From positions 31,830 through 95,829 of the IMG/VR virus record IMGVR_UViG_3300021197_001928: a DNA stretch of 64,000 nt; one strand, 5' to 3'. Positions 41,668 through 62,956 of this stretch are shown piece after piece. The notes under the pieces are model-generated. The model searched no databases. It was given only the letters and a program-made list of their open reading frames with translations, and was not told the DNA's origin. Both the position numbers and the translations under genes were made by a program. This stretch comes from a virus. Every line of letters starts with the position of its first letter. Position 1 is the stretch's first letter.

Positions 41668-42993
41668 CTACAATATCTTTGAGGCTAAAGTCGCTAATTT
41701 CGATCTTTCTCCTCGTTTAAACGTTATATGACCAGATAGATCATATGTTTTAAACCTTTCAACCGCAAAAGCTAGGCCATTGGAGGTTTCGTTTGTATAA
41801 ATGTTGTCAATCTGTTCTACGTCTCCGGTCAAAACAATTTTTGTATTGTCTCCGATCCTTGTAATGATGGTCTTAACTTCATGGGCTGTGAGATTCTGTG
41901 CTTCATCGATGATAACAAATGCATTGGAAATTGAACGTCCACGGATATAAGTCAGGGCCTCAACCTCTAATTTGCCTTTCTCCATAAACCCTTGCAACAT
42001 TGTTTTATCGTGACCAACAACCATCTGTAGATTGTCTTGGATAGGCTTTAACCATGGCAACATCTTTTCTTCCATCGTTCCGGGAAGGAATCCAATATCT
42101 TTTCCAAGTGGCTGGACTGGTCTTGAAATAATTATTTTTTTGTATACCTTTGGACCCATGCCTAAACATTGTTCCATCGCAGCAGCAATTGCCATAAGCG
42201 TTTTTCCTGACCCGGCTTTACCAATTAAGGTTACCAGAGGGATATCATTATCAAAAAGTAGGTCAAAAGCAAAGGATTGCTCTTTATTACGTGGTTTGAT
42301 TCCCCAGCTAATTTCAGGCCATTTTTGCAGGATTGGCTTTAAGGGCTTGTGAGATGCATTGAAACGACAAAGCGCAGTTTTTTTAGGGTTTGCGGACGAT
42401 TGAAGCATAAGAAACTGGTTTGGGTAGAGCCTCACTCCCTGTTCTTCGTCCAATATAATTTCTTCTCCGGCATAAAAGTGATCAATGATTTGATCATCAA
42501 CCAATATTTCCTCAAATCCATCGTATAATTTATCTGCGTCATCGACTGCCTGCAATGTTTCATAATCTTCTGATTCCATTCCTAGTGAATTTGCAATCAC
42601 TCGCATGTTGATATCACGTGAAACAACAATAGTTTTACGTTTTGGCCAATTTGATTGGACTTTTAACGCTGCTGACAGAATAATATGGTCTGGGATGGTT
42701 AAATCTAGGGAGTTTTTAGATACTCCTTCGAAGTCATGATCACATACTTTAATGACGCCTTTGCCCTGTTCTGGTCTTATTCCGTTGACAAGGGACCCCT
42801 TCTCTCGGAGTGTATCAAGATGTTTTATTATCTTTCTTGCGTGAAATCCAACGGAATCTTGACGTTTTTTGTGGTTGTCAACTTCCTCTAATACCTTTAA
42901 AGGTATGAACACATCATTATTTCCAAATGAAAATAATGCATCAGCATCCGATAGAAATACTGATGTATCAATTACATAATTTTTCTTTGCCAT
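41668..42993 (-). CDS. PIN-PhoH ATPase (PhoH2-like)
   Basis: 441 residues. N-terminal PIN nuclease domain (YVIDTSVFLSD; acidic residues at 9 and around 110-145) and C-terminal PhoH domain with Walker A GKAGSGKT at about 262 and Walker B VIIDEAQN. PhoH2 proteins are RNA helicase/RNases, and phoH genes are frequent in marine phages. Abuts the giant 1556-residue gene with a 1-bp overlap, so it can be expressed from the promoter upstream of that gene. Confidence 0.92.
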   Translation of the reverse strand: MAKKNYVIDTSVFLSDADALFSFGNNDVFIPLKVLEEVDNHKKRQDSVGFHARKIIKHLDTLREKGSLVNGIRPEQGKGVIKVCDHDFEGVSKNSLDLTIPDHIILSAALKVQSNWPKRKTIVVSRDINMRVIANSLGMESEDYETLQAVDDADKLYDGFEEILVDDQIIDHFYAGEEIILDEEQGVRLYPNQFLMLQSSANPKKTALCRFNASHKPLKPILQKWPEISWGIKPRNKEQSFAFDLLFDNDIPLVTLIGKAGSGKTLMAIAAAMEQCLGMGPKVYKKIIISRPVQPLGKDIGFLPGTMEEKMLPWLKPIQDNLQMVVGHDKTMLQGFMEKGKLEVEALTYIRGRSISNAFVIIDEAQNLTAHEVKTIITRIGDNTKIVLTGDVEQIDNIYTNETSNGLAFAVERFKTYDLSGHITFKRGERSKLATLASKIL

Positions 42994-45900
42994 TATTTAC
43001 CTCTCATTAGTTTTTGAATTAGCGGCTTAAGGGTTCTTTCAATTTGCTCTTGTTGGGCTGTCTTTTTATTCATGGCCGTTTTAACCTTTTCATAAACAGC
43101 ATCAAACAAGGATGGTTTTTCTATTGATATTTTTTTCAATAATTTTTGTAGCTTTTCGTCTGGTGTTTTGAGCATCTTCATTGCTAATTTAACATGATTT
43201 TTATCATTAATTTCTCCGCCCTTTTCCCATGTTTTTTTCAGCTTTAATTGCCAGTTCTTTAAAGGTTGGGGTTTTTTACCCTTTATTTTTCGGTTTCTAT
43301 TTCTTCGAAGTTTTCGCTCTTCTTCCATAGGATTATCAGATAATGAATCCTCCCATGCTTTGGCTAATTGTAATATTTCATCTTCGACAAACTTATTCTT
43401 TGACAATTTTTTTAATGAGTCAATTGATGCTTGACCTAAGATAGGAGAGGGTTCATCATCTTCTATTTCAAAGTCATCATCTTCAACATTAATATCCTCA
43501 AGATCTTTTATTGCGGCCGCATCACCAGACATATCAAGATCAGACAGGTCCAGATCTGCAAACTCGTCATCACCTTCTAAATTAGAATCTATTGGTGGTG
43601 ATGGAAACTCTTCTTCTGGTTTGTGTTTTTTCCAAGCTCTTTCAAAAAGTTCCATATAATCTTGCATCACTGCGAAGCCTTGGTTAACAGCCTTGGGTTT
43701 TAATTTATCTGTTTGTTTTTTCTTTATTATTTCTATAAAAGACTCAACATACTTAAGTTTGTTTTGAAATTTCTCGAAATCAACACTGGACTTATCTTCT
43801 TGCAACATGCCAGCAGCAATATCAAGCCATTCCTCAGTTTGATTGAAGCGTCCATTTGTTTTTTGGTCAACGTTTCGATATAATCTATTTATACTTTTAT
43901 AAAATTTAATATTTTTATTGTCATCGAAGAATGTCTTCCACTTACCATCGGATTCAGGCGACTTTGGTTCTTCTGTTTCTTCATCATCCTTTTTTTCTTC
44001 TGGTTCTATTATAGCTTTATCCATTTTACCCATAAAATCTGGGACCGAATTTTCTATATTCAGGGGCTGAGGAAGTTTATACATAATAGACTGTTCACTT
44101 CTTCCGCCACGGCCAATTTGAATTTCTATTGCTATGTTTGGATATTTTGATTTTAGGATCATGTCGGTTATAATATTCGCCTTTTTCTCCACAAGATTAT
44201 CTTCAATTTGAGGAAATTCGTCTGGGTTTAGGAAGTGTTTTCCGTCTGAATACTTTTGTTTATATTCTCTTTCGAACACACTCTCAAGACCTTGAAACAC
44301 TTCTTTGAAATCTTCTTTTGTGGTTTCGGGTTTCTTTTCATCATTTTTCTTTTTGTCATCACCTTTTGGGTCATCTTTAATTTCGTCGCCATAATTGTCT
44401 TGGAAATCTCTAAGGAAACTTGAAATAAGATTTATACCCTTCTTCCCTTTAAACAAATCATTTGATTTAAGGTCTCCGGCCATCTCTTCCCAATTTGACT
44501 TCAATATTGCTTCAACTATATATTTCTTTATTGCTCTGCGGAGACGAGATTCTGTGACATCAAACACGCCTCTGCTGGGTTCTTTGTCTTCACTTTCTTC
44601 GTCGTCATATTTTTCAATAGCATTTAAGACTGCTGTTTTTTGATCTTTTGACATTTGCTTCCACGAATCAAACTCTGGGAGTTTAGAATACTTTTTCCTA
44701 AACTTGCTATCTTCAAAGGGGTCTTTTTCTGTGTCAAGTGTGAGACCACCGGATGAAGCTAATAAATCTTGCACAATTGGTTCTAAAACAGAATCTGGTT
44801 GGCCTGATGACCATGAAAAGACTTCTTCGTTACCTTCATCTTGAACAACGTCAATGACCTTTGTAGCAATAGCAGTTTTTAATTCTTCGTATCCATCATA
44901 ATTATCCATATCAAATGTTGGAGCATCTTTGATTTTTTCAATTGTTTGCTTTACCACATCTGCTTCTTCTTCTGGGATTTCTAGGGTGGGGTCCTTGAAG
45001 TTTAGATTCAACAACATTGCCAACTTAAGACCTTTTGTATTGAATTTATAATTTTTCTTTTCAATGAATACCTCGATTGCATTGAAAAGTTTCACTACTT
45101 TTACTTTATTATCTTTCATCCATTTCATCGCCCATTTGAAAAGTTCCTTGTCCTTTTTCATAATTAAAGTGAGCACAGCCCTGCGTTTATCGCCAGCGAG
45201 TGGTTCGCTGACGTTCATCATGGTTGAAATAGATTCTTTTTTGAGCGCTGGTATAAATTCGGCATCTGATGCCAACAAATAAGCTAAAAGCCTTAAAAGG
45301 TTGTTTTCATCTTGAGAACCTGATTTTATTCCTATGTCTTCTATTCTGGCGGAGATGGTTGTGTTTTTTAAAAGTTTCATTGTTATGAATTTAGATACAC
45401 TTATTGCTGTGTTGAATGGCGTTTTGGTCGCTTCCATACCCTTGGCATCAACTCTCTGGAGGAAATCAACAAAAGCATCAGCCTTTTTCTTGTCACCCAA
45501 GACTTTATTAATTAAGACTGCGTAGTTTGGATTTATTTCACGAATAACAACAATGGCAGCACCAAGTTTAGTTTTGATTTTATCTGCTATATTTTCTGTT
45601 ATTAGGCCCTCTTTCATAAAAAATGATATCAAATAGTAAAACGCTGTTTTTTGCGCCTCTGTTTCCAGAGACATTATGAACTCGTCAGTTGCATACTTTC
45701 TTTTAGCAGCTTCGGCGCCTTCCTTATAAAAATCGGTAGCTTCTTCCTCTTCGGCTTCCTCGTCCTCCTTATCATCTTCTCTTTCTGCATCCGGATCGGC
45801 AGAATCTTTTTCTGTCAGTCCGGGAATACCAAAGATTCTCTCAATATCTTTTGAAAACTCAATTATTCTGTCTTGAAAACTCAATATTGCAACTTTGCCT

Positions 45901-47663
45901 TGATCTCCTTCTAGAACATCCTTGAGAGTCTGAATGTCCGAAGAGTCTAGATCTAATTTTGCGATGGCTTCTTTGTACTGATCTGTAATGTCAGTTGCTT
46001 GAAGTTTACTTCCTTCGAATGGCACAATTGATGGAAAGAATTTTTTGATTGTAGACAATAACTCTAAGGCTTTCTTAACACCTCTTTCAATTTCATTAAA
46101 GCTCATCTTAACTGGTGGGGATTTGGAAAGGTTGTCAATAATTCGGCCAAGGCCTCCCTTTTCTATGTCTGTCCCAACAATGATTTCATATACATCTTCG
46201 ATTCTATCCAAAGTCTCACGATATTTTTGCATCTTTGCTTCAATATCAGGGCTAAGTTTCTCTTGTAATGAACCTCTTTCAACCGGTCCCATAATTTTAT
46301 TGATCGAATCATTTAACATCTTAATCTTTTCTTGAGTTGCGGTTGCAAATTTGACAACTTTCGCCCTTGAGGCATCACTGACGAGCTTTCCTCCCTTGGT
46401 GTCCTTCATTGCTTGGATCACAAGTTGTTCTGATAATTTAAGTGCTCGCTGAAATGCTCGTACAGAAGTCTTAAAATTTCTAATGTCGTTTGGCTTGGCA
46501 GCAATTTTATCGGCCCCTTCAGTTTCTTTGGCGGCAGGATCTTCTACTTCGTAGAGGTCATCTCTCTTAGCTGGTGTGTCCGTTGTAGGCTCTGCTGGTG
46601 ATTTTGTTGATCGATCACGGTCCGCTCGTCTTCCATATGCTTCGGCGGACTCTTCGTCTGAGAATGCTTTTAGGGCCTTCAAGAGAGCGGTTACTAATAC
46701 GGCTTGTTCTTGTAATTTTTTTTCTTTATAAAATTGATTTTTAAATTTGCCAAAAGAAATTCTAAGGGCTTTAAGTTTTTCTGGGTCTGGGTCGACTATT
46801 TCTTCGTCGTCTCCACCTTCTGTTTCTGCTGCCGGTTCTTCTGGTTTTGCGCTATCAGGTCCCGTCAATGCTTTTTTCAAAAACTCCATCACAGTGTCCT
46901 TTTTCAAAGCAGCAAAAAAGGATTTCTTGTCTTCTGTAGCCAAAGACCTCATATATTCCTCGAAAATTTCCTTAGTAAAGACACCAGCCTTGATGTATGG
47001 TGTGGCGCTTTCTTTTAATAATTTCTTTGTTGACAAAAATACTAAAAACTTTACAATTGCGTTTTGTTCAGCGGTGTCTGGTAGAATGTTCTTTATTTGC
47101 TCGCCATACTTATCGCTGATTTTTTTCACTGCTGGGTCTGTTTTTGCGGGCTCTTTTTCACCTTTGAGTTGCGCCAACGCTTTTTTGAGGTTTGGGTCTT
47201 CTTTGTTGTAAGCCATTAGATTTTGAATTAGTAGATTTTCAGTCTTAATTAAGTCAGCAAGCTGTTTACGGAAGTTGGCTTTAGCTTTTGGTTTGGCTTT
47301 GGACATCTTTTCTTCGTTTGAGAAAAGTTCAATCAGATCCATAAAGTTCTTAAAGTCACCTTTGAGAGGTTCTACTTTTTTCATTAATGAATCGTATGCC
47401 CCTTTGGCTATTGCTTCTCCCTGTTCGGGGTTATCTTTTCTAAGTTTAGCGTAGAAACCTTCTATGCCATCGCCATTCGAAAGATTTATCTTGCCTTGTT
47501 TTATCAACTGCATGAACACGGCCGTCGCTTTTTCAACAGAAGCTTTTATATCGCCTGCGGGTTGTTGCTGTTGGTTTTTGTTTTGCAACGGTAGGGGTTG
47601 CTGGATTTGTTTGTCTTCTGTTTCGTTAACAAAGCTCTGCCAGTTTTCTAATATAAGTTTCAT
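42993..47663 (-). CDS. 1556-residue protein with capsid-targeting-like leader
   Basis: N-terminus MKLILENWQSFVNETED is nearly the same as the start of the GNAT protein at 57434 and resembles the T4 capsid-targeting peptide, with FVNE as a possible prohead-protease site. The rest is Lys/Glu/Asp-rich, mostly helical, with long acidic linkers. Around residue 1035 an inner ESRLRRAIKKYIVEA segment resembles the second leader type, suggesting fused units. I recognise no enzyme. A head-internal, injected protein is the best inference; the size would make it a major internal-body protein. Confidence 0.8.
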   Translation of the reverse strand: MKLILENWQSFVNETEDKQIQQPLPLQNKNQQQQPAGDIKASVEKATAVFMQLIKQGKINLSNGDGIEGFYAKLRKDNPEQGEAIAKGAYDSLMKKVEPLKGDFKNFMDLIELFSNEEKMSKAKPKAKANFRKQLADLIKTENLLIQNLMAYNKEDPNLKKALAQLKGEKEPAKTDPAVKKISDKYGEQIKNILPDTAEQNAIVKFLVFLSTKKLLKESATPYIKAGVFTKEIFEEYMRSLATEDKKSFFAALKKDTVMEFLKKALTGPDSAKPEEPAAETEGGDDEEIVDPDPEKLKALRISFGKFKNQFYKEKKLQEQAVLVTALLKALKAFSDEESAEAYGRRADRDRSTKSPAEPTTDTPAKRDDLYEVEDPAAKETEGADKIAAKPNDIRNFKTSVRAFQRALKLSEQLVIQAMKDTKGGKLVSDASRAKVVKFATATQEKIKMLNDSINKIMGPVERGSLQEKLSPDIEAKMQKYRETLDRIEDVYEIIVGTDIEKGGLGRIIDNLSKSPPVKMSFNEIERGVKKALELLSTIKKFFPSIVPFEGSKLQATDITDQYKEAIAKLDLDSSDIQTLKDVLEGDQGKVAILSFQDRIIEFSKDIERIFGIPGLTEKDSADPDAEREDDKEDEEAEEEEATDFYKEGAEAAKRKYATDEFIMSLETEAQKTAFYYLISFFMKEGLITENIADKIKTKLGAAIVVIREINPNYAVLINKVLGDKKKADAFVDFLQRVDAKGMEATKTPFNTAISVSKFITMKLLKNTTISARIEDIGIKSGSQDENNLLRLLAYLLASDAEFIPALKKESISTMMNVSEPLAGDKRRAVLTLIMKKDKELFKWAMKWMKDNKVKVVKLFNAIEVFIEKKNYKFNTKGLKLAMLLNLNFKDPTLEIPEEEADVVKQTIEKIKDAPTFDMDNYDGYEELKTAIATKVIDVVQDEGNEEVFSWSSGQPDSVLEPIVQDLLASSGGLTLDTEKDPFEDSKFRKKYSKLPEFDSWKQMSKDQKTAVLNAIEKYDDEESEDKEPSRGVFDVTESRLRRAIKKYIVEAILKSNWEEMAGDLKSNDLFKGKKGINLISSFLRDFQDNYGDEIKDDPKGDDKKKNDEKKPETTKEDFKEVFQGLESVFEREYKQKYSDGKHFLNPDEFPQIEDNLVEKKANIITDMILKSKYPNIAIEIQIGRGGRSEQSIMYKLPQPLNIENSVPDFMGKMDKAIIEPEEKKDDEETEEPKSPESDGKWKTFFDDNKNIKFYKSINRLYRNVDQKTNGRFNQTEEWLDIAAGMLQEDKSSVDFEKFQNKLKYVESFIEIIKKKQTDKLKPKAVNQGFAVMQDYMELFERAWKKHKPEEEFPSPPIDSNLEGDDEFADLDLSDLDMSGDAAAIKDLEDINVEDDDFEIEDDEPSPILGQASIDSLKKLSKNKFVEDEILQLAKAWEDSLSDNPMEEERKLRRNRNRKIKGKKPQPLKNWQLKLKKTWEKGGEINDKNHVKLAMKMLKTPDEKLQKLLKKISIEKPSLFDAVYEKVKTAMNKKTAQQEQIERTLKPLIQKLMRGK

Positions 47664-50811: not shown

Positions 50812-51180
50812 TTATTTAGTTTTATTTTCCAACATACCTTTTTCTCTGTAGAGTTCACCCTCCAGATAGTGTTTTACTTTAGCAATATAATCATTAGCAA
50901 GTGTAATTTTTAACTCAACCCATTCAGGAAGATTATCTTCATCAGATATCATTTGCATTAATTCTTCAGCATAATTTCTCATATGCATTAGTTGGGAACG
51001 AGACATACTTCCCTCGTTGTTATTATGGTTGTGCATCATATCAGGACAACCACATGGTTCATCATCCATAGCAATTCCAATTTCAGGAACATGTATTGTT
51101 TGAGCCATTGGATCTTCAATTGGTCCCCCGCATTCATTTAATTTGCTTTCATTTATAATTTTAACTTTAATCTTTTTCAT
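50812..51180 (-). CDS. Protein with 'LPEWV' helical domain, 122 residues
   Basis: Starts MKKIKVKIINESKLNE. A Cys/His-rich loop (CGCPDMMHNHNNN) is followed by a helical domain, SRSQLMHMRNYAEEL then NLPEWVELKITLANDYIAKVKHYLE, of a kind that recurs in marine T4-like phage proteins. The function is unknown. The start with Ile-Asn-Glu could be a cleavable leader. It precedes the promoter of the next unit. Confidence 0.65.
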   Translation of the reverse strand: MKKIKVKIINESKLNECGGPIEDPMAQTIHVPEIGIAMDDEPCGCPDMMHNHNNNEGSMSRSQLMHMRNYAEELMQMISDEDNLPEWVELKITLANDYIAKVKHYLEGELYREKGMLENKTK

Positions 51181-51192
51181 AATTTTGTTCCT

Positions 51193-51570
51193 TTATTTTA
51201 AAGAAATATGACCTCTTCCGCCAAATTGCATATTCCCGCTTGTGTCATCAGGTACTAGGTCAACTTTTTCGCCGGTATCAATTGATTTGCCCATTCTATA
51301 AATTTTGCCACCACTATGATTTACAAAAATTTCTATATCTTGGCCATCTTTATTGATAATAAACCGCATATATTCACCATCCTGTTCTTTTCTTATAGGA
51401 TGTGTTGACATACCACCGGGCTCATTAGGGTTATATAATAAAAGGTTCCTTGCATAGCTAATGAGATCTCTGCTGGTTCGGGGTCTTTTTTTGTAAGAAT
51501 TGAATCCCCTTCGCATCTCGCTAATTTCTTCCTTAATCATTTTCCGTAATAGTTCAGTTGTTATTTTCAT
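51193..51570 (-). CDS. Leader-peptide protein, 125 residues
   Basis: N-terminus MKITTELLRKMIKEEISEM belongs to the repeated 'LxxIIKEE' leader family. The rest is a basic linker and a beta-rich C-terminal domain with INKDGQDIEIFVNHSGGKIY. Predicted to be packaged in the head and cut after IKE or nearby; this is inference. CTATTTA lies 18 nt upstream and AGAGG before the ATG. Confidence 0.7.
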   Translation of the reverse strand: MKITTELLRKMIKEEISEMRRGFNSYKKRPRTSRDLISYARNLLLYNPNEPGGMSTHPIRKEQDGEYMRFIINKDGQDIEIFVNHSGGKIYRMGKSIDTGEKVDLVPDDTSGNMQFGGRGHISLK

Positions 51571-52002: not shown

Positions 52003-52902
52003 TTATGCTGTTTGTTTTGCTTGGTCATATTCTGGTGTTGTTGGCTCATCCACAGATGTTTGAAGCTCATCTTCAAATTTATCGAAGTAAAGCTTTATAT
52101 TCGTGACAAGATAATCCAAAAAGATTTTTTTATCCTCTGGGTTAGCTAGTGAATCATATGCATCAAGGATATACTGTGAGATCTTGCGATAACAAGTATA
52201 TGCGTGGTTACGTCCTGTTTCGTCCATTCCTTCTAAGCCACCACCAAAGTCCTCTTCAGGGCTTGGCTCATCGTCATCCTCAACAGGTATTTTTTTGTCA
52301 TCGTCACCTTCGTCATCAATATCAATTTCTATATCAGCTTCTTCAAGTGCGCCCAAGTCAGCGTCTTCTTCATCATCCAAGCCTAGATCGACATCTTCTA
52401 CATCCATGTCTTTCCCTTCACCACCACCAGTTGGTTCAGAAAGTAAAGTGGAACTACCACCAGAACCGCCTTGTAAATATTGAGAATTCACAGTCTCAGG
52501 CTTAAGTGCATCTATAATAGCTTTAACAATGTGTGATCTGAACGATTTTCGTTGATTTTCGTCTGTTGTGAGTTTTTTATAATCAGTACGTAATGTTGGT
52601 ATAGATTTTTTAAGAACATCTTCCAAGGTATTAATACCGGTTGATCTATGTGGATGAGTATCAGATAAATCTCCCTCTTTGAGAAGGTCACGAATAATAA
52701 CCCTTAATTGATATTCTTGTTTAATTTGCTCACTCAATAAATTTTTTAGTTTTCTTCGAACGTGCTCTCTTAATATTTTTTCATCTTCTGTCATTTCGTC
52801 TTCCTTTTTAACGGCAACACCTTGAACTGCACCTGCACCCATCGCAGACATTTCAAGTAATTGTTCAATTGTTGTAATTTCAACGATTGTGTTTTGATCC
52901 AT
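52003..52902 (-). CDS. Acidic protein, 299 residues, possible scaffold or head-internal protein
   Basis: The N-terminal third contains QLRVIIRDLLKEGD, similar to the repeated leader motif but internal. The middle is extremely acidic, with long Asp/Glu runs and Gly-Ser linkers (about residues 150-225). The C-terminus is helical. Composition suits a scaffold, core or packaged protein. Start ATG overlaps the upstream TGA (TGATG); a GTG one codon earlier is possible. Confidence 0.7.
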   Translation of the reverse strand: MDQNTIVEITTIEQLLEMSAMGAGAVQGVAVKKEDEMTEDEKILREHVRRKLKNLLSEQIKQEYQLRVIIRDLLKEGDLSDTHPHRSTGINTLEDVLKKSIPTLRTDYKKLTTDENQRKSFRSHIVKAIIDALKPETVNSQYLQGGSGGSSTLLSEPTGGGEGKDMDVEDVDLGLDDEEDADLGALEEADIEIDIDDEGDDDKKIPVEDDDEPSPEEDFGGGLEGMDETGRNHAYTCYRKISQYILDAYDSLANPEDKKIFLDYLVTNIKLYFDKFEDELQTSVDEPTTPEYDQAKQTA

Positions 52903-53243
52903 CACTTTTTACCTTTTTTCTTGTTATCTAAATATGCCTGAAGGCCGGGATTTAATTTTCCTTTCTTTTTCTTGGGTTTGTCTTCACCTTCACCCTCTTC
53001 CTCACCAGTATTATCTTCACTATCACCTTCATTTTCTTTCATAGGTTTTTCATCTTTTTCGGTGTCGCCCTCTTCTTTATCCTTGGCAGCATCAGACATT
53101 GATTCCTCTTTGTCACCATCACCATCGATATCAGCAAAGTCAGGTTTCTTTTCTTCTTTAAGTTTTCCAAGATCCATTTTGAATCCCCACTTTCCGGTGA
53201 GAAGACCACCGATTTCTTTGTTTTTCCATTCTTTTAAAGACAT
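52902..53243 (-). CDS. Internal in-frame gene product, 113 residues, starting MSLKEW
   Basis: In-frame start at ATG 53243 within the protease-tail gene. AAAGGAG sits 11 bases before it, and CTATTTA at 53266-53272. It encodes MSLKEWKNKEIGGLLTGKWG followed by a charged tail ending PGLQAYLDNKKKGKK. Similar short MSLKEW-type proteins occur alone in other phages, as I recall. Expected to be made late, in higher amounts than the full-length form. Confidence 0.55.
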   Translation of the reverse strand: MSLKEWKNKEIGGLLTGKWGFKMDLGKLKEEKKPDFADIDGDGDKEESMSDAAKDKEEGDTEKDEKPMKENEGDSEDNTGEEEGEGEDKPKKKKGKLNPGLQAYLDNKKKGKK

Positions 53244-53696
53244 TTTTCTATTTCTCCTTTCGTTATAAATAGTATTTTCTTTCTCTTTTAGACTATCTTC
53301 CCAGTCTCTAAACAACATTGGGTCATTAGCCTCTTTTTCCATCTTTCTTAGATGTGGGTTTTTCTGTGCATATCCCTTACCAGAGTAACCTGAGTCTTCA
53401 AACTCACCATTCTCATTCTGGCTGTGATGCACCAATTCGTGCGCTATAGATCTTAGGATGTCCTTGGGGTGCCTGTTAGTTGCAAACACGTGAATTTCCA
53501 TAGTGTTGGGGTCGTAATGGCCTGTTTTGCCAAGAGTGTTACTAGCATTTCTCTTGTCATGGTTAAGAAAGATACTTGGGGGCTTTTCAAAGCCTAATCT
53601 TTGTTGAGCGAAATCACAAAGACTGTGTACTTCTTTTTCATATTCAACCGGAGATCCTGTTTTGTTGTTAATTTTAAAATTCATAATCGTCATCAT
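52902..53696 (-). CDS. HExxH protease domain joined to charged core-like tail
   Basis: 264 residues. Residues 1-150 carry a zinc protease motif, H86-E-L-V-H90, with a downstream Glu-rich helix (KMEKEANDPMLFRDWED) that may give the third ligand. From residue 152 the sequence changes to MSLKEWKNKEIGGLL and a Lys/Glu/Asp-rich tail. That Met is preceded by AAAGGAG and a CTATTTA motif, so a separate 113-residue product (52902-53243) is likely. The ATG used here is one of three close Met codons. Possible roles: prohead core plus protease; unproven. Confidence 0.75.
   Translation of the reverse strand: MMTIMNFKINNKTGSPVEYEKEVHSLCDFAQQRLGFEKPPSIFLNHDKRNASNTLGKTGHYDPNTMEIHVFATNRHPKDILRSIAHELVHHSQNENGEFEDSGYSGKGYAQKNPHLRKMEKEANDPMLFRDWEDSLKEKENTIYNERRNRKMSLKEWKNKEIGGLLTGKWGFKMDLGKLKEEKKPDFADIDGDGDKEESMSDAAKDKEEGDTEKDEKPMKENEGDSEDNTGEEEGEGEDKPKKKKGKLNPGLQAYLDNKKKGKK
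53266..53272 (-). promoter_or_regulatory. CTATTTA motif inside the protease-tail gene
   Basis: Minus-strand CTATTTATAAC, 22 nt before the internal ATG at 53243. Same orientation and spacing range as the intergenic copies. Confidence 0.5.
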
Positions 53697-54456
53697 CCTC
53701 TAAATTAATTCCGCTAAAATCCAGATCATCGTGACCGCCGAACATTTTTTCAAATTCATCCTTTTCTGGTTCCGGCGGCACCAATTCATCTTTACCGTAT
53801 CCTCTCATGTCAAGAACGGCACCAGCGACGTCGGTTGCACTTGAGGGGACACCTCTATTATGCACGATTTTTAATAGAGTTTCGTTTGTTATATTAGGGT
53901 GCTGTGCCGCAGACCCAACAAGCTGGAAATCGATTTTCTTTATTCCATGGTCAACTAAGCGGTCAAGTATTTCGGCTGTTGCACTAGGATTAGAGGCAAC
54001 ATTGCGCTTTGTCCGTTGGTGTTCCTTTTCCATTGATAAGGTATCGAGCATTTCTTTAGTCGAAGAAGAATTTAAAGCAAGGCTAGCACGTACTCTAAGT
54101 TTGTCGTTATCCAATAAATTTTGCAAAACATCCACTGGAGTTACCGGGTTTACGGCAACTTTCGCCAAGACATATGTATTTGCAGGTGGCGCCGTGGCAA
54201 AGATTCTCATTGCTTCGGGTGATTGCTTTATTGTTGGGTGTGCTATAACCATTCTTATAATTTTTGAGTTTTGACTCAAATCACTGTAGGAGACTGGCAC
54301 ACCCAGCATATCTGCTAGCTCAATTCCTTGAATCACAAAAGTTCCATCGTCTGATTTAAGCAATTGATCAAGTTTTGGCATTCCGGTACTCTCTCTGAGG
54401 GCTTTTGAGAGTTCTTCTTTTATTATTTGTTTTAATTGTTTTGTTGTTAATTTCAT
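53674..54456 (-). CDS. Leader-peptide protein with LRV-like repeats
   Basis: 260 residues. Leader MKLTTKQLKQIIKEEL, then about five units of the leucine-rich-variant type (NPVTPVDVLQNLLDND, VRASLALNSSSTKEML, NVASNPSATAEILDRL, AQHPNITNETLLKI), spaced roughly 24-30 residues. The C-terminal 45 residues are acidic. LRV/HEAT-like repeats are protein-binding scaffolds, so a packaged host-interacting protein is plausible. Overlaps the 191-residue gene by four bases. Confidence 0.75.
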   Translation of the reverse strand: MKLTTKQLKQIIKEELSKALRESTGMPKLDQLLKSDDGTFVIQGIELADMLGVPVSYSDLSQNSKIIRMVIAHPTIKQSPEAMRIFATAPPANTYVLAKVAVNPVTPVDVLQNLLDNDKLRVRASLALNSSSTKEMLDTLSMEKEHQRTKRNVASNPSATAEILDRLVDHGIKKIDFQLVGSAAQHPNITNETLLKIVHNRGVPSSATDVAGAVLDMRGYGKDELVPPEPEKDEFEKMFGGHDDLDFSGINLEDDDDYEF

Positions 54457-55028
54457 TGTTTATTTCCACTTAATATTGCGTCTTGTTCCTCTTTGGTAGT
54501 CTTTATTGCTTTGATTTTATCAAAGGTCATAACTGTCGGTTCCCCGCTGGCCCTGTATCCAAGTCTGTGGTATGTACCAACATAATTTTGTCTTATATCT
54601 TCGAAGAAATTATCCCACTGAAGGAAAGAATATTGGGGATGTTTGTGCTTTTTATGCATCCCCTCTGGGTCGTTCTGCCAGTCATATATTTTGTTTCCGG
54701 GGATATCCGCATAGAAGAGCCCACCATGACCAGAAGTAACCATTCCTTCGGTATTCTCAAGATCAACATACCAATAGGATCGCTTATATCCGCTAGCGTT
54801 AACATCCCGCATTGTATATCTTTGCTTACCAAACATTTCAGGGTCAACTACCATACTGTCTTGTTCAGAGTGCCCCCCTTTAGGAGTATAATGAAAAACT
54901 CTCAGCACACCGGGTGCATATAATCCGATGTAGTCACTTAGTTCTTTGGTACCTTCTGGTTCCTCGGATAGAACATTTTTGAGTTCTTCTTTTATTATTT
55001 GTTTTAACCGTTCTGTTGTCAATTTCAT
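54453..55028 (-). CDS. Leader-peptide protein, 191 residues
   Basis: Leader MKLTTERLKQIIKEEL, then a beta-rich domain (GVLRVFHYTPKGG, RSYWYVDLEN, YVGTYHRLGYRASGEP) of no named family. Start set at ATG 55028, which overlaps the upstream stop as ATGA; an in-frame ATG at 55049 would push the leader inside the protein. Predicted head-packaged by the leader. Confidence 0.72.
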   Translation of the reverse strand: MKLTTERLKQIIKEELKNVLSEEPEGTKELSDYIGLYAPGVLRVFHYTPKGGHSEQDSMVVDPEMFGKQRYTMRDVNASGYKRSYWYVDLENTEGMVTSGHGGLFYADIPGNKIYDWQNDPEGMHKKHKHPQYSFLQWDNFFEDIRQNYVGTYHRLGYRASGEPTVMTFDKIKAIKTTKEEQDAILSGNKQ

Positions 55029-56255: not shown

Positions 56256-57434
56256 TTATTCTCCACCACCGTCGCCACCACTGTCACCACCGGAATCATG
56301 TGCATGGGAGCCTATATAAGGCCATAATGACCCCCTATTTCGGCGTTTTTTGGGTGTTTTACGGCGCTTTTTACGCCCTTTCTTGCGCTTTTCATCCATA
56401 TTTTGGACGATTTTTACCTTAATTTTGCGTTTTTTTTTATCATCTTTCTCTTCCAAAGCTCCAAAGCCGGCTGGTGCACTCTTTGAACGACTCATTTTAG
56501 GCCTTTTATGGCCTTTTCCGCCTCCAAAACTCTTATTTTTGCCTAATCCAATCAACTTTTTCTTCATTTTCTTATGTTTTCGCTTCTGAGAGCGCTGAAA
56601 ACGGCTCTCTTCACTGATTATTCCTTGATTTTTGATCATTTCTACCGCTGAACGTACAATTTGAGTGCCATTTTTGGCATATTTAAACATTTCATCCACA
56701 GAAACCCACACATATTCGTCATTTTCTTGAAAATCTTGCATATCTAGGTTGATTTCGGGCTCATTTTGCTCTAATTTGGTCTGAAAAAAAGTAATATTGT
56801 TATTTTTACCCTTCCAGTGGAATATTTGAGAGCCAATTTTCTCTAAATACGGCAATAACAAGCCTGTTTCTTCCATTATTTCCCTTTCTGTGCCCTCAAT
56901 AGGTCCATCTGGGCGATTTACTTCCAATTCTTTGAGGTGTCCGCCCGGAATATCCCATTTTCTGCCTTCATCTGTGCGCCTTAAGAGTAAAATTCGGTCA
57001 TTTTTGTCATATATGATAGCTTTTCCAACTTCTGGGCTGTCTTTTAAGAAATCAAACGGATTTTTTACCTGTATTTTGCCAAAGTTGTTGGAAATCTCCT
57101 CTAAACTATCATCATAATGGAGCGTAGAGCCTAAATTTTCGAGCTTTTCTAACTTTAATGCACCTTCGGTATAGTGAATTCTTTCGGGCGTAAAATAACT
57201 GCTTAATAAGAGCTTCTCAAGGTATGCCGGAACTGTAAATTCGGGAAAAAGATCTTCTTTATCTCTAGATCGTGCTGTAACAATATGAATATCGTCTCCT
57301 TTTTCAATATGAGATTGGATTAACTCAATAATTTTATCATTATAGCCATCAAAAACAAAAATTGGCTTATTATCTTCAATTAGCATGTGAGCCATAACGA
57401 TTGTGTCATCAAAATCGAAAGTTATTACAGCCAT
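56256..57434 (-). CDS. HAD-like, NUDIX and basic-tail fusion protein
   Basis: 392 residues in three parts. Residues 1-120: HAD-like, with D7xD9 in FDFDDTIVM and an IVTARS motif II. Residues about 135-265: NUDIX hydrolase, with the box EGTEREIMEETGLL and an insertion after GGHLKE. Residues 275-392: a Lys/Arg-rich tail with KKRRKTPKKRRNRG and a glycine/aspartate end (GSHAHDSGGDSGGDGGGE). NUDIX enzymes hydrolyse nucleotide-linked substrates. The basic tail could bind nucleic acid or target the protein into the head. The combination is unusual. Confidence 0.8.
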   Translation of the reverse strand: MAVITFDFDDTIVMAHMLIEDNKPIFVFDGYNDKIIELIQSHIEKGDDIHIVTARSRDKEDLFPEFTVPAYLEKLLLSSYFTPERIHYTEGALKLEKLENLGSTLHYDDSLEEISNNFGKIQVKNPFDFLKDSPEVGKAIIYDKNDRILLLRRTDEGRKWDIPGGHLKELEVNRPDGPIEGTEREIMEETGLLLPYLEKIGSQIFHWKGKNNNITFFQTKLEQNEPEINLDMQDFQENDEYVWVSVDEMFKYAKNGTQIVRSAVEMIKNQGIISEESRFQRSQKRKHKKMKKKLIGLGKNKSFGGGKGHKRPKMSRSKSAPAGFGALEEKDDKKKRKIKVKIVQNMDEKRKKGRKKRRKTPKKRRNRGSLWPYIGSHAHDSGGDSGGDGGGE

Positions 57435-58183
57435 TACTTCTCATCTCCGTGAATTCCGGTTTTTTCCGGCTGATATTCGTTGTTAAATAATCTATTTGCT
57501 TGTTTTGCTATTTCTCTTCGTATAAGATTCACTGATATATCGCTTTTATCTAAATAATCATTTAAATTATTAATTTGCTTTGTTACAATGGCCTGAACGG
57601 AGGAAATTCTTTCCGGAGGGATCTGTAGGCTATGATCTGAGGCCGCTTTATAGACACTTACGTCATCACAGTCGTCATTAGGGTCTGGTGTTGTCCCATT
57701 ATAATCAAAAGTATCACTTCCACCGATTATTTCTCCATCTTCATTGTATTCTTCTGTGCCCGGTGCAGTTTTTCTCTTAATGTATCCAAATTCGTTTTCA
57801 AGTTTGTTCCAAACTTTTGCTGCTGGCTTGGTAGTACTAGTCAAATGGTCCGAGGTTATGCCTCCTTTATAATTTTTTAGCACTAAGAGTGAGGCGACTT
57901 CATATAAATACGTTCCAATACCTCTTTCAAGAGCGCTTGGGTGAACCGCAACGGCACCAATTTCATGTGTGTCCGGAATGCAGGGCTTATCTGTCATTGT
58001 ACTTGTCTCAATCATTCCAATAACCATTGGTGTCTCTGGAGGTTGTGCCGATGCTAAATCAACAAGAGCCAAATTCATGCCGACTGATGTCTGAAAGGTA
58101 TATAATCCTAAGGTTTCCATTTTATATTCTTTGGTCCAAGATTCATTTACAAATTTACGCCAGCTTTCCATTAATAATTTCAT
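57434..58183 (-). CDS. Leader-peptide GNAT acetyltransferase-like protein
   Basis: 249 residues. Leader MKLLMESWRKFVNES, close to that of the 1556-residue protein and to T4 capsid-targeting peptides. A GNAT core follows: IGAVAVHPSALERGIGTYLYEVA, with the acetyl-CoA loop R87-G-I-G-T91. The C-terminal half is unassigned. If packaged, it would be injected and could acetylate host targets, in the manner T4 Alt ADP-ribosylates them (analogy only). Its upstream promoter is sigma70-type. Confidence 0.75.
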   Translation of the reverse strand: MKLLMESWRKFVNESWTKEYKMETLGLYTFQTSVGMNLALVDLASAQPPETPMVIGMIETSTMTDKPCIPDTHEIGAVAVHPSALERGIGTYLYEVASLLVLKNYKGGITSDHLTSTTKPAAKVWNKLENEFGYIKRKTAPGTEEYNEDGEIIGGSDTFDYNGTTPDPNDDCDDVSVYKAASDHSLQIPPERISSVQAIVTKQINNLNDYLDKSDISVNLIRREIAKQANRLFNNEYQPEKTGIHGDEK

Positions 58184-58251: not shown

Positions 58252-59217
58252 TTACTGATAATAGTAAGCAATCTCCACTAAACTTTTTTCATCAGGCATT
58301 GTATTGAAATAAACACGGTTTTCAGCATCAACATAATGCCAATCATAATTGGGCACACCATCAATAAAAACATAAATCCTATCATTATAAAGTGGAACAT
58401 GTGTTAACTCCCAATAATCATATTGAGTAATCTGTGTTCCGGCGTCTGCAACGCCCTGAGACCAGTCTTCAGAACAAATATCTATCGTTTGACCGGGTAA
58501 TCCATTAGCGGCATCAATATATCTTTTTCCTTCATTCAAGGGTGAGGCTGGTTGACACTCGGTATCTCCCTCCTTCAACTGTACTATCGAAGAAACAAAA
58601 ACATATTCTCTCTCGGTAGATATCCAACCTATAAAATCACTAGGGCTGGGAAAATGCACATAGCTTTGCTCTTCTTCATCTGATACAAAAACAATCAATA
58701 AAGCAGCATCTTCTCTCATCCATGTAGAGGCATAACCATTTCCCATATACGATCTCACCGCATCAAAACCTTTCTCGTGGTGCCCTGTTACAGTTGTGCT
58801 TAGTTGATCCTCGGCTTCTTGAGACCCGTCTCCCGGAATTAGAGGGAACTCTTGGGTTTGAGCAGACCGAGTCGGATCAGCAGATATAATCGCTAATCTC
58901 CAACCAGAAACCGGCAACACACTTAACATATCACCAATTCCAGCAACTACTCTTGGCCTATCATTAATCATAGAACCAGAAGGGTCGATCACCCATAAGA
59001 TGTCAACCCCTTCAAAATTGCCCGGCTGTGTAAAATTATCAACCCATATGTCTGCTGCGTCCTGTCCAGTATCTTGGATAATTATCGTATCCCCTTCAAT
59101 ATAAACATCTTGCTGAGACACCCACGTCTCAACCTCTTCGTAAGTTATTTTTTCAACCTCGTATGTGAGCATGTGATCCGATATACATGCGAACAAAAAT
59201 AAAAACCAGACAAACAT
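58252..59217 (-). CDS. von Willebrand A-domain lipoprotein
   Basis: 321 residues. Lipobox LFAC with Cys11, so likely a lipidated envelope protein. VDILWVIDPSGSM gives the MIDAS motif D78xS80xS82 at the start of a vWA fold; IVFVSDEEEQ and the C-terminal Cys pair follow. The type is common in Deltaproteobacteria-like bacteria, where such lipoproteins act at the surface or in adhesion. In a phage it may modify the infected cell surface or block superinfection. Strong GGGGGG ribosome site. Confidence 0.8.
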   Translation of the reverse strand: MFVWFLFLFACISDHMLTYEVEKITYEEVETWVSQQDVYIEGDTIIIQDTGQDAADIWVDNFTQPGNFEGVDILWVIDPSGSMINDRPRVVAGIGDMLSVLPVSGWRLAIISADPTRSAQTQEFPLIPGDGSQEAEDQLSTTVTGHHEKGFDAVRSYMGNGYASTWMREDAALLIVFVSDEEEQSYVHFPSPSDFIGWISTEREYVFVSSIVQLKEGDTECQPASPLNEGKRYIDAANGLPGQTIDICSEDWSQGVADAGTQITQYDYWELTHVPLYNDRIYVFIDGVPNYDWHYVDAENRVYFNTMPDEKSLVEIAYYYQ

Positions 59218-59263: not shown

Positions 59264-59686
59264 CTATTTTTGTTTTGAAAAAAGCCGAAGACAGTTTTTT
59301 GGGATGGTATAAGTATAATCTTCCTCTGCAAAATAAACAAGGTAAGAGTCAATCACATTGCTCATTTCTCTTCCGTCAAAATCTGAGGTTTTAATTATTG
59401 TTTCTGCGATGATTGTACCAATCCCTTTGTAATTTAAAATTTCTTTAATATTTGGTTTTAACTCAACCAAATCACCAATTTTTAATTTATCTTTTTTAGT
59501 ATTCATGCTTATTTTGTCGATGTAGTCATTCATTAGAGTAATGTCTTCACTATCTGTAAATAGGCGGATCTTAGAAGAATAAAGACCAACGTATGTAATT
59601 ACACCCGGCACATGGCGAGCCCCGATTAAACCAATCAGCCATGGATTATTGCTTATTACTATGTCTCCGATTTGAAACTGCATCAT
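59264..59686 (-). CDS. Two-repeat SH3/KOW-like protein, 140 residues
   Basis: Two similar units, FQIGDIVISNNPWLIG (residues 4-19) and LKIGDLVELKPNIKE (about 68-82), each followed by strand-turn-strand sequence ending in GVITYVG or GIGTII. A tandem version of the small SH3-like family in this window. Overlaps the next gene by 41 bp. Confidence 0.7.
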   Translation of the reverse strand: MMQFQIGDIVISNNPWLIGLIGARHVPGVITYVGLYSSKIRLFTDSEDITLMNDYIDKISMNTKKDKLKIGDLVELKPNIKEILNYKGIGTIIAETIIKTSDFDGREMSNVIDSYLVYFAEEDYTYTIPKNCLRLFSKQK

Positions 59687-59864
59687 CTATTTCAGTGCAG
59701 AACACCAACCTCCTTAAATCTTCTTGTGGAAAATGTACCACGTAAGAATTTAAAATTTCGCCAAAGTTAATTGACTCCCTTTTTTCAATAACTATGCCAT
59801 ATCCATAATTAATGAACCGATGCTTAACTAGGTCTCCAATGTTAAAATTAATTTTTCTATGCAT
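59646..59864 (-). CDS. Small SH3/KOW-like protein, 72 residues
   Basis: MHRKINFNIGDLVKHRFINY then YGIVIEKRESI; same family as its neighbour. ATG 59864 is used instead of an upstream TTG at 59888, though no good ribosome site is visible for either. The promoter of this minus unit is unclear. Confidence 0.6.
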   Translation of the reverse strand: MHRKINFNIGDLVKHRFINYGYGIVIEKRESINFGEILNSYVVHFPQEDLRRLVFCTEIDDAVSNRRHSNKQ

Positions 59865-59879
59865 ATTTATAATTATAAC

Positions 59880-59908
59880 TTGACACAAAGTTTATAGTGT
59901 GTTATAAT
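59880..59908 (+). promoter_or_regulatory. Sigma70-type promoter, plus strand
   Basis: TTGACA (59880-59885), 17-bp spacer ending TGT, TATAAT (59903-59908), about 16 nt before the ATG of the 59-residue membrane protein. Full consensus; starts the plus-strand unit. Confidence 0.85.
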
Positions 59909-59924
59909 ATCAAATGGAGAAAAT

Positions 59925-60104
59925 ATGGACAAAGAAAGAAAAGAAAGAATCAAAAAAATGCTTGTGGGAGCCATCACTCACCCTCTAGAGGCATGTGTAG
60001 AGCTTAGTTTTTATATTATATCACTCGCAGTTGGTATATGGATATTAGGCTTTGCTTTATCGTTTTTGGTCAAGATAATGCAGCCAATGATTTTTCTAAC
60101 ATAA
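59925..60104 (+). CDS. 59-residue membrane protein
   Basis: MDKERKERIKKMLVGAITHP followed by a hydrophobic helix FYIISLAVGIWILGFALSFLV and a short tail ending FLT. Basic N-terminus in the cytoplasm predicts an N-in single-span protein. GGAGAAA precedes the ATG by a few bases, and a consensus promoter lies just upstream. Could be a small inhibitor, holin-like or anchor protein. Unknown family. Confidence 0.7.
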   Translation: MDKERKERIKKMLVGAITHPLEACVELSFYIISLAVGIWILGFALSFLVKIMQPMIFLT

Positions 60105-60108
60105 AAGA

Positions 60109-60115
60109 CTATTTA
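60109..60115 (+). promoter_or_regulatory. CTATTTA motif on the plus strand
   Basis: CTATTTAGG, 22 nt before the ATG of the 258-residue leader gene and on the same strand as it. It shows that the motif follows gene direction and not the genome strand. Confidence 0.55.
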
Positions 60116-60137
60116 GGATTATTGGAGAAACCAGAAT

Positions 60138-60914
60138 ATGACTACAAATATGAAACTTATTTTTGAAAATTACAGAAGAGGGATGCTTGCTGAGGAGGAA
60201 GAAGTAGAACCACAGACTGTTGGTTCGCTAGTTGATACTCTAGAGGCACACATACTTGCAAATAGTGATAAATTAAAAAGAGTGGCTAATGCGATTGTTA
60301 AAGCTTTTGAGACCTTTGCTGAAGAGTTCCCTGAAAAAGCTGAGGAGCTAGCAGAAATCACATCAAAAATAACAGAATTGTTTACCGAAATAGCAGCAAA
60401 CGGCTTACGTGCAGTGCTTAAAACCATGGGTAAATCAAAAGTTGTTGAATATTTAAAAATTATGGCAACAAACACAATAATTCAGGAGTTTTTAGCTAAA
60501 AAGGTTGGCGCAAAGGTGTTAAAATTCGTTCTCGAAGAAATGATACCAGCCGCCAAAGTGATTATTTCAACTGGTAGAACAATTATGGGACTATTTAAGG
60601 TCGCAAAGTCAGTTAGAGACGCAGTTGAATCTGGTACTGGGGATCCTAACAAAGCATTTGCCATGATTGTTAAGGATGTAATGACTGCCGAGGACAATAA
60701 AGCAACAACTGCTGGCTTTATGAAGATGCTTAACATTGATGATGAGTGGTCCAAGATGCTGGATAACAAAATTGAAATGGAATTTATCGAACAATCAATT
60801 CAATACATCAGAACAGTCGACCCAAGTACGACTCTAGATAAAATTAATCTAAACCAGAGACTTGTTGCATTCTTAAAGCAAAAATTTGATGGAAGAACAT
60901 TAGCAAAACAATAA
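60138..60914 (+). CDS. Leader-peptide protein, 258 residues, helical
   Basis: Starts MTTNMKLIFENYRRGMLAEE, a variant of the MKLxxENxxxF leader. The body is long amphipathic helices (LVDTLEAHILANSDKLKRV) with hydrophobic Ala/Val/Ile stretches around 120-160. Helical, membrane-active or packaged protein; no family recognised. The first ATG has GGAG ten bases upstream; the Met at the leader is four codons on. Confidence 0.72.
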   Translation: MTTNMKLIFENYRRGMLAEEEEVEPQTVGSLVDTLEAHILANSDKLKRVANAIVKAFETFAEEFPEKAEELAEITSKITELFTEIAANGLRAVLKTMGKSKVVEYLKIMATNTIIQEFLAKKVGAKVLKFVLEEMIPAAKVIISTGRTIMGLFKVAKSVRDAVESGTGDPNKAFAMIVKDVMTAEDNKATTAGFMKMLNIDDEWSKMLDNKIEMEFIEQSIQYIRTVDPSTTLDKINLNQRLVAFLKQKFDGRTLAKQ

Positions 60915-60921
60915 ATTTTAC

Positions 60922-60950
60922 TTGACAAAACCTCCTTAACAGGTTATATT
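60922..60950 (+). promoter_or_regulatory. Sigma70-type promoter, plus strand
   Basis: TTGACA (60922-60927), 17-bp spacer ending GGT, TATATT (60945-60950), before the lipoprotein gene at 60968. GAGAGG gives the ribosome site. Confidence 0.82.
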
Positions 60951-60967
60951 GTATAAGAGAGGTAATT

Positions 60968-61849
60968 ATGTTTTATATTTTGTTTGCGTTTTTATATGCA
61001 TGCAGTTCTGACGTGTCTGTGATCAAAAGGATAACCGAAGAAACGGGAGAAAAAGAATCCGGTATTGAGCCGGGTGTCGGACCATCTACGGAACCTGATT
61101 TGCCACCACCGCCCATTGAAGGGAATGGTGGGTATATTCACTATTATCTACGACAGATTGCATGTCCCGCCTGCGTTGGGGAGCAACAAGAACTCCTCGT
61201 GGAGTTCGGAGCCAAATTTTTTCAACCTACTAACGAAAATCACACGGATTGGATACCTCCTTTAGGAGAGTGTGTTGATCAATTGCTCATAACGAGCCCT
61301 TCAACAAACAAAATAGATGTTGGTGAGTCCCTTACAATAACAGGGCCGGTACATTCATTCATTGCTCAAAAGCAAGGAGACGAATATTATGCCCAGATCT
61401 ATGAGACACAGTATGATAGGAACTCAATCCACAATGTGTCTATACCGTCCGAGGATGCCGAAATTCAGTTCTTATCCATGGAAGGGTATGATTACATAGA
61501 ACCGCAAGAAATGCTGTATATTGACCCTTCTTATGCGTTCTCTGCCCCTATCTATAGGACGGGGATGACGTTTAGCTGGGCTCCCTATGATACCTCTCGT
61601 ACATACATGATATTATTAGCTGTATACTCCTCAGACGGATCACAATTGCTGGGTTACTCAGTTTGTACAGGTCCCGATCAGGGGTTTCTTGCATTTCCCG
61701 CATCAGCGTTACAGTCCTTTCCTTACGGGTCTCTAGTCTTGATTCATTTGTCTCGTCACCAAATTGACTTTTTTCCTTATGAACCGATGGGATCTCATAT
61801 TGAAACCCATATGGAGTGGGAAGTTATAGGAACAGGCTATATGCAGTAG
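60968..61849 (+). CDS. Predicted lipoprotein, 293 residues
   Basis: Signal peptide MFYILFAFLYAC with lipobox LYAC (Cys12). A Pro-rich linker (GPSTEPDLPPPP) leads to a beta-rich domain holding CPAC and further cysteines, with two immunoglobulin-like segments. No family recognised. Outer-membrane or surface exposed if lipidated. Own sigma70-type promoter, so probably made early. It converges on the minus-strand gene ending at 61854, four bp away. Confidence 0.75.
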   Translation: MFYILFAFLYACSSDVSVIKRITEETGEKESGIEPGVGPSTEPDLPPPPIEGNGGYIHYYLRQIACPACVGEQQELLVEFGAKFFQPTNENHTDWIPPLGECVDQLLITSPSTNKIDVGESLTITGPVHSFIAQKQGDEYYAQIYETQYDRNSIHNVSIPSEDAEIQFLSMEGYDYIEPQEMLYIDPSYAFSAPIYRTGMTFSWAPYDTSRTYMILLAVYSSDGSQLLGYSVCTGPDQGFLAFPASALQSFPYGSLVLIHLSRHQIDFFPYEPMGSHIETHMEWEVIGTGYMQ

Positions 61850-61853
61850 CTTT

Positions 61854-62498
61854 TTATTTTTCTCGCATATGCATTGGAACAGGATTATATAGAATTCCAT
61901 TTATTTCACGAATTTTTCCGTCCTCAATGTATTTTTGAATTTCCCCGACGATTAATCTATACAACTCAGGAGCATATGACATCCACTCAGCGTTGAATCT
62001 TTCTTGATCTGCCCCGCCACCCTCGGAATTTTTGTATTCTTCCCAGTTCATGGAATATAAATGGTCCATCATAAACCTTTGTTCCGTAGTGGCCAGTTGT
62101 TCCTTGGTTATGTGCATCGGTTCCCAGTATCCTTGACCTTGCATTGGGTTTTTCACGTACTGGTCCAAGTTAACACCTTGGTTTTGCCAATAGCGAATTC
62201 TGTTTCTTGTTGGAAGGTTCTGAATTCCGCTGATTGTTTCTCTAATGAACTTGGGAATCAATCTGGCACCTTGAAATTCAAGTTTATGAGCCATGCTTTC
62301 CTCGGAACCCATAGCCGAAGCTAATTCATATGAGGAAACATAATCCTCATAATCCCCGCTTGACTCTATATTGTCGAGTTTGCCCATTATTTCATCGTCA
62401 AAGCCAGCAGCCTTTCTAGCCATAAAGCGCCTAGAATTGGTTACCTCGTTTATTTCTTCGATGATAATTTTCCGTAATTGTTTTGTTGTTAACTTCAT
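61854..62498 (-). CDS. Leader-peptide protein, 214 residues
   Basis: Leader MKLTTKQLRKIIIEEINEV, then a helical, aromatic-rich body (YWQNQGVNLDQYVKN, MMDHLYSMNWEEY). No family recognised. Overlaps the next leader gene by 1 bp, so two leader proteins are translated in tandem. Confidence 0.72.
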   Translation of the reverse strand: MKLTTKQLRKIIIEEINEVTNSRRFMARKAAGFDDEIMGKLDNIESSGDYEDYVSSYELASAMGSEESMAHKLEFQGARLIPKFIRETISGIQNLPTRNRIRYWQNQGVNLDQYVKNPMQGQGYWEPMHITKEQLATTEQRFMMDHLYSMNWEEYKNSEGGGADQERFNAEWMSYAPELYRLIVGEIQKYIEDGKIREINGILYNPVPMHMREK

Positions 62499-62956
62499 TA
62501 TAAAATTCCTTTTTCTTGTAAAAACTCTTGAAACTCTTCCACGTTTTGGAATGCATTGTCGTTCATGTGCTCAACTCCCACCAAGTCAAAAAGCGCTTTC
62601 TTATTTCTACCATAATTTTTAAAAAATTCATCTAATGCTTTTTCGGCCATATCAACTTCACTATAGAAGCCGCTTTGCTGTGCCTGATGGAGTGTATTTT
62701 GCAATCGCTGTTGTTCAGGGTTTGCTCGTATACCAATACTGTTATGCCAAATGCCTTGCGCCAGTTGGCGCTTTAAATCCGGGCCTATGTTATCTAGGTC
62801 AAGCACTTCCATAAAGTCTAGTGCCATCGCCATTTCAGTTTTCATCATATCAATAACCTTCATTACTTCTTGTTCAGTCATTTGGTTATCTTCTTGTATA
62901 ACGTATGCCAATTCTTCTTTTATTATTTGTCTTAATTGTTTTTGTGTCAATTTCAT
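62498..62956 (-). CDS. Leader-peptide protein, 152 residues
   Basis: Leader MKLTQKQLRQIIKEELAYV, followed by helices with heptad-like spacing (MTEQEVMKVIDMMKTEMAMAL) and a Gln-rich middle. No family recognised. Overlaps the lipoprotein gene by four bases. Confidence 0.72.
   Translation of the reverse strand: MKLTQKQLRQIIKEELAYVIQEDNQMTEQEVMKVIDMMKTEMAMALDFMEVLDLDNIGPDLKRQLAQGIWHNSIGIRANPEQQRLQNTLHQAQQSGFYSEVDMAEKALDEFFKNYGRNKKALFDLVGVEHMNDNAFQNVEEFQEFLQEKGIL

Follow-up and report, generated by a model that had tools for sequence, protein, structure and literature searches.

Swappable N-terminal leaders resembling T4 capsid-targeting sequences on unrelated proteins of aquatic T4-like phages

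Why should proteins that are otherwise unrelated begin with nearly the same short peptide? The question is raised by a 64,000-nucleotide stretch of viral DNA (the window; bases 31,830-95,829 of the 95,829-base record IMGVR_UViG_3300021197_001928), in which eight genes open with one of two leader peptides, here called type A and type B. The boldest answer, to which we assign a probability of roughly 0.58, is that aquatic T4-like phages use a modular, swappable head-import tag, built of tandem capsid-targeting sequence (CTS) units, as the delivery address for hundreds of lineage-specific and mostly unknown host-takeover or counter-defence proteins, and that the tag would thus mark injected effectors. 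From the sequence features described below, the leaders are very probably prohead-targeting propeptides of the T4 CTS kind, cut by a gp21-type protease. That most cargo proteins are injected and act on the host is suggested by analogy with the T-even phages and is somewhat favoured.

Gene calls were mechanical and leaders were typed by regular expression, so that variants were missed. The type B expression matched 93 of 1306 true gene starts compared with 12 of 13371 internal methionine positions (about 79-fold), the type A expression matched 18 of 1306 compared with 19 of 13371 (about 10-fold), and a control pattern read backwards gave 0 matches. Given this enrichment at gene starts and the empty backward control, the leaders are not a product of chance.

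Type A has the form MK-L-[I/L]-x-E-[N/S]-W-x-x-F-[L/I/V]-x-E. When leaders were aligned on the final E (P1; n = 67), P7 was W in 59/67, P4 was F or Y in 66/67 and P3 was L, V or I in 66/67, these three columns being restricted by the search expression itself. Columns left free by it held I/L at P11 (56/67) and E at P9 (49/67), which together make a second [LI]xE eight residues upstream. The search for type B constrained no residue beyond position 14, yet conservation runs on as far as residue 22 before dropping to background level. The loci are non-independent samples of phage diversity, and body clusters were therefore cut to one member each for the boundary statistics (n = 284). An [ILVM]xE with its P1 at residues 18-24 was present in 195/284 proteins, against a mean of 31 (maximum 37) in equal-width stretches further on, and the full unit (hydrophobic-x-x-hydrophobic-aliphatic-x-E) ended at residue 22 in 59/284 (background 0.6) and never at 21 or 23. 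The best reading of type B is a tandem of two CTS-like units, L8..I11-I12-x-E14 followed by L16..V19-L20-x-E22. Both leader types thus have a pair of [LI]xE sites with a spacing of eight residues, and, in columns outside the search pattern, the leader ends at an L/I-x-E site of the gp21 type. The first-pass annotation had noted that FVNE and IIKE fit an L/I-x-x-E-like cut site; for FVNE, the better counterpart in type B is the second site (VLxE, E22), not IIKE by itself.

This grammar can be set beside that of known systems. In T4, a 10-residue N-terminal sequence directs proteins to the prohead core, with residues 4 and 7 involved in targeting and 8 and 10 in processing, and gp21 cleaves after L/I-x-E (PMC9026906); the sequence also carries foreign proteins into heads, GFP and a nuclease among them (PMC9026906; PMC9958956). 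The T4 proteins IPII and IPIII start with MKTYQEFIAE, and P7, P4, P3 and P1 of type A are the four mapped CTS residues. Type A has the equivalents of Y4, F7, I8 and E10, and type B has them only in relaxed form, P7 and P4 being aliphatic. Run on a 50-kb stretch of T4 as a positive control, the type A expression picked out 2 of 70 open reading frames, namely IPII and IPIII, and missed the diverged IPI. Like the CTS of these internal proteins, the leaders are short N-terminal peptides on non-homologous proteins (aromatic P7, F at P4, I/L at P3, E at P1), found in a phage that has a gp21-type protease with its L/I-x-E cut rule. Unlike it, type A has W at P7 and one more [LI]xE upstream, type B is longer, tandem and without aromatic residues, and there is far more cargo per phage clade, in a system known from sequence alone. 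The phiKZ-like giant phages (phiKZ, 201phi2-1, SPN3US) also have many head proteins whose removable propeptides contain several redundant sites, and a diverged relative of gp21 makes the cut after E (PMC9026906). Their motif is S/A-x-E, however, which our leaders do not match, as their P3 is I, L, V or M, and PMC9026906 describes no short leader common to unrelated cargo. A parallel to type B comes from capsid proteins. The Gp23 proteins of 12 relatives have a common N-terminal region, in which a conserved LLENQAKELLRE stands before S or A (in one, LLKES), and T4 gp24, which starts with MAKINELLRES, sheds its first ten residues (PMC9958956) and so is cut directly after ELLRE, the same kind of end as in type B. 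We infer that the N-terminal region of the relatives' Gp23 is a propeptide cut at KELLRE. In an open-access subset of the literature, a search on the peptide and on head targeting among uncultured or marine T4-like phages led to work on T4 and the giant phages and to no description of these leaders; most likely, the system is used more widely than in T4, and its tandem form (type B) is not described in the literature found.

The best evidence that the two leader types share one job is that they are interchangeable. Leaders were carried by 315 body clusters, one short N-terminal peptide thus standing on unrelated proteins, and homologous bodies were found with either type. A P-loop ATPase has type A in loci L034 and L031 and type B in L057 and L066 (69% and 52% identity). 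The GNAT family that includes the window protein at 57434-58183 mostly has type A, with type B in L133 (L133:4676-5431). In a family marked by FKNKR, the L195 member has a form of type A, the L205 member type B and the L226 member a different leader that ends in LLE, with a nearly constant distance from body to E. In the WPSAYASG family, type B leaders occur in L003, L020 and L110, whereas L145 has type A. Lastly, the window protein at 50812-51180, which starts with a third form (MKKIKVKIINE), is 77% identical over 92 residues to its closest relative, the type B protein at L262:630-998.

The enzyme expected to remove such leaders is encoded on the same record: a T4-type prohead protease (PF03420, E=1e-36) lies at C1:2226-2660. 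Read along the minus strand, the left part of the record has, in this order, terminase-like and portal-like genes, several small genes, the protease gene and fibre-like genes. No capsid gene was seen on the record, and it presumably lies off the record end. The closest annotated relatives of the protease are from Microcystis phage Mel-JY01 and Flavobacterium phage immuto (43-48% identity), and closer ones are numerous in IMG/VR viral contigs. Immediately after the protease is a small conserved gene (L002:1714-2124; 81 relatives in the collected loci) with a type-B-like helix at its start (NELKKILKPLIKECIKEVLFEE), whose product is a candidate prohead core protein. More broadly, PF03420 was present in 17/19 leader-bearing viral records longer than 80 kb, and among records of 20-72 kb it was found in 8/17 leader records versus 0/16 random ones. 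In loci chosen only for the protease, 27-29% had leaders in the two slots directly upstream of it and 0-2% at two to five genes downstream; T4 genes 67 and 68, which encode core proteins, occupy the equivalent portal-protease interval.

The leaders are nearly restricted to phages. The exact type B DNA pattern had at least 120 matching stretches in viral contigs, while 257 Gb of bacterial and archaeal genomes yielded only ten, in six metagenome-assembled genomes (MAGs; up to seven per genome), one of which had PF03420 on the same contig. Frequent leaders in non-phage cytoplasmic proteins, named in advance as a finding that would count against head targeting, were thus not observed, and we rejected the idea that leaders are common in cellular proteins. 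MAG contigs with several phage leaders each (L224-L233; e.g. NHDW01000006.1 and PBIO01000025.1) are probably misbinned phage DNA. Among named phages, Flavobacterium phage vB_FspM_immuto has starts MKKSQLRQIIKEALD and MGKVNKAYIENIIKEILSE near head genes, as judged by eye. Further leader-like starts by the head genes of this phage (L263; MADNFNLRSFLTE, MENFDLKKFLVE and MENNFDIHKWQAKFLKE) are possibly another leader variant of Flavobacterium phages. We found no virion proteome of this phage in the literature. A tblastn search of named phages with the bare 22-residue leader gave one weak match, the query being too short to inform.

What the leaders carry is diverse. Pfam gave few matches among 93 leader proteins: AAA_33, pentapeptide repeats, EF-hand, LRV and a weak kinase-like one. 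Of the three kinds of cargo that the first-pass annotation had singled out, the GNAT-like enzyme is borne out by its structural model (predicted local distance difference test score, pLDDT, 82), in which the leader is a low-confidence helix (residues 2-14), a GNAT-like fold begins at about residue 25, and Foldseek finds NatD and RimI acetyltransferases with probability 1.00; a search of named phages with this protein gave no match. The LRV-repeat protein does have an LRV_2 match, but one below the Pfam cut-off, and the 1556-residue protein was confirmed, with a type A leader. An AlphaFold model of a type B ATPase was of low confidence (pLDDT 60), with a possible helix at residues 9-27. None of the five type B bodies in the window has a relative among the collected loci. 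A conserved leader in front of lineage-specific bodies is the pattern described for the T-even internal proteins (PMC12373910), of which Ip1-Ip3 are injected anti-restriction proteins that target type IV restriction enzymes (PMC12373910). The cargo here can be likened to them, from sequence, as variable, non-homologous, signal-bearing and probably head-carried; the difference is that host targets are known for Ip1-Ip3, whereas the present cargo gives fold-level hints of enzymes.

Based on these observations, we propose that both leader types use one unit, with hydrophobic residues at P7 and P4, an aliphatic one at P3 and E at P1, and are cut after the E. The leader, probably an amphipathic helix, would dock its protein onto the scaffold core while the prohead grows; at maturation, the gp21-type protease would cut after the L/I-x-E site or sites and remove the tag, and the freed protein would remain with the DNA in the head and probably be ejected into the next host. 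We infer packaging and cutting strongly, whereas injection and effector roles, by analogy, follow more weakly. The capsid-targeting and prohead-protease reading offered by the first-pass annotation is upheld by PF03420 on the record, the retrieval of IPII and IPIII, the leader swaps and the near-absence from cellular genomes. It predicts new N-termini after E14 or E22 in type B proteins and after FxxE in type A proteins.

Several points weigh against this proposal. The E22 site is found in a part of the type B leaders only. Some members of swapped families seem leaderless, such as the CPPATQDL proteins in L036 and L050, and cyanophage proteins with the WPSAYASG domain have no leader at their annotated start. 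PF03420 is missing from two of the large leader records; these also gave no match to Gp23 or the T4 portal, in searches that matched no control genome either, and may be fragments without head genes. The association with the protease could also partly reflect shared ancestry of one phage lineage and not function. In one alternative, the leader is a shared helix (a membrane anchor, a partner-binding or a stability tag) that acts inside the infected cell and is unrelated to the head, in keeping with its resemblance to an amphipathic helix and with packaging being deduced. We consider this improbable, as the leaders match the mapped T4 CTS residues and L/I-x-E, co-occur with the protease and adjoin its gene, and lose their conservation abruptly at the L/I-x-E site. 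A less distant competitor, though still unlikely in our judgement, accepts import into the prohead and takes the cargo for core proteins, structural proteins or assembly factors that either remain in the head or exit it. Enrichment of leader genes between portal and protease, the T4 place of core genes 67 and 68, would fit it, as would the related helix in the conserved gene right after the protease and the annotation of the WPSAYASG body family as structural in some cyanophages. Conserved assembly factors would not, however, be expected to be mostly lineage-specific, as the bodies are (the five type B bodies of the window being a case in point), some bodies are enzyme-like (GNAT, P-loop ATPase, kinase-like), and the CTS-bearing internal proteins of T-even phages are injected and act on host defence (PMC12373910).

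The type B starts had also been described as similar at the DNA level, and the leader might on that account be a copied DNA element (a 5' cassette, regulatory or translation start) whose peptide has no function itself. The likeness is real for three near-identical leaders, those of the genes at 53674-54456, 54453-55028 and 62498-62956, which share 10-12 of 11-13 comparable codons and look recently copied. It also appears as an excess of identical codons at shared residues over all ten leaders tested (236/394, with 171 expected from codon usage). The remaining leaders, however, keep their residues while their codons differ. Identity is 35% over the 30 bases upstream, 71% in the leader and 28% in the body; the upstream DNA being hardly conserved, it is the part coding for the peptide that was copied, and the conservation lies mainly in the protein sequence. 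Residue pattern and phase are, moreover, maintained over hundreds of bodies. A search for the T4 late promoter (TATAAATA) gave scattered sites with no consistent tie to leader genes, as judged by eye. The copied-DNA explanation is already disfavoured, and we give it very little credence.

On the record as a whole, 15 of about 108 genes are leader genes, 11 of type B and 4 of type A, with 8 inside the window (Table 1). The eight had all been located in the first-pass annotation, with coordinates and starts that we recovered; the set is real but larger than was noted, as seven more genes (six type B and one type A) lie on the rest of the record. The leader spellings given there hold in general, except that the gene at 51193-51570 has MKI and MIKEE, and that at 61854-62498 reads IIIEE, not IIKEE. 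The type A variant at 60138-60914 is present but diverged (ENYRRGMLAE) and starts after MTTN. The 1556-residue protein had no Pfam or PHROG match. The syntenic protein at 52003-52905, left out of the leader-gene count, is a possible core protein; its relative in genome G001 begins about 37 residues later.

Table 1. Leader genes of the record and two further genes with related starts. Plain coordinates are those of the window; L002 and L003 are loci on the rest of the record.
Coordinates	Strand	Product	Leader and remarks
42993..47663	-	1556-aa acidic helix-rich cargo	type A, MKLILENWQSFVNE; one weak relative in G001
50812..51180	-	122-aa protein	third leader form, MKKIKVKIINE
51193..51570	-	125-aa cargo	type B, MKITTELLRKMIKEE
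52003..52905	-	syntenic conserved protein	leader-like helices near start (LREHVRRKLKNLLSE, LRVIIRDLLKEGD)
53674..54456	-	260-aa LRV-repeat-like cargo	type B, MKLTTKQLKQIIKEELSKALRE; LRV_2 E=8e-4, below Pfam cut-off
54453..55028	-	191-aa cargo	type B, MKLTTERLKQIIKEELKNVLSE
57434..58183	-	249-aa GNAT-fold acetyltransferase-like cargo	type A, MKLLMESWRKFVNE
60138..60914	+	258-aa cargo	diverged type A, MKLIFENYRRGMLAE; relatives start MKLIMENWRREVLNE and similar
61854..62498	-	214-aa cargo	type B, MKLTTKQLRKIIIEE
62498..62956	-	152-aa cargo	type B, MKLTQKQLRQIIKEELAYVIQE
L002:2771-3049			type B, diverged
L002:3511-3927			type A
L002:9546-9806			type B
L002:10648-11019			type B, GTG start
L002:12148-12498			type B
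L003:1258-2415			type B
L003:2412-3569			type B

Other genes of the window were noted alongside. Interspersed with the leader genes are four with lipoprotein- or signal-peptide-like starts (40987-41658, 58252-59217, 60968-61849 and 62953-63303), of which 58252-59217 has a DPSGSM motif (compare VWA domains). A NUDIX gene at 56256-57434, with a HAD-like N-terminal part and a strongly basic C-terminal tail, is syntenic in the relative G001, where it also stands beside leader genes. Small proteins with a GDLV...YGIV-like core form a second multi-copy family, scattered over the window (37976, 49254, 55365, 59264 and 59646) and L002 (18584, 18768 and 19119). On the minus strand at 24894-39474, a run of sugar genes (epimerase-like, HAD phosphatase-like, several glycosyltransferase-like and aminotransferase-like) suggests that the phage remodels host glycans or its own surface.

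Injected phage proteins are mostly unknown because their sequence carries no mark for them. If the leaders are the delivery tag that we propose, a searchable tag with a defined cut site would allow injected proteins to be listed straight from the genomes of uncultured phages, and the three internal proteins of T4 would be a small case of a broad delivery system.

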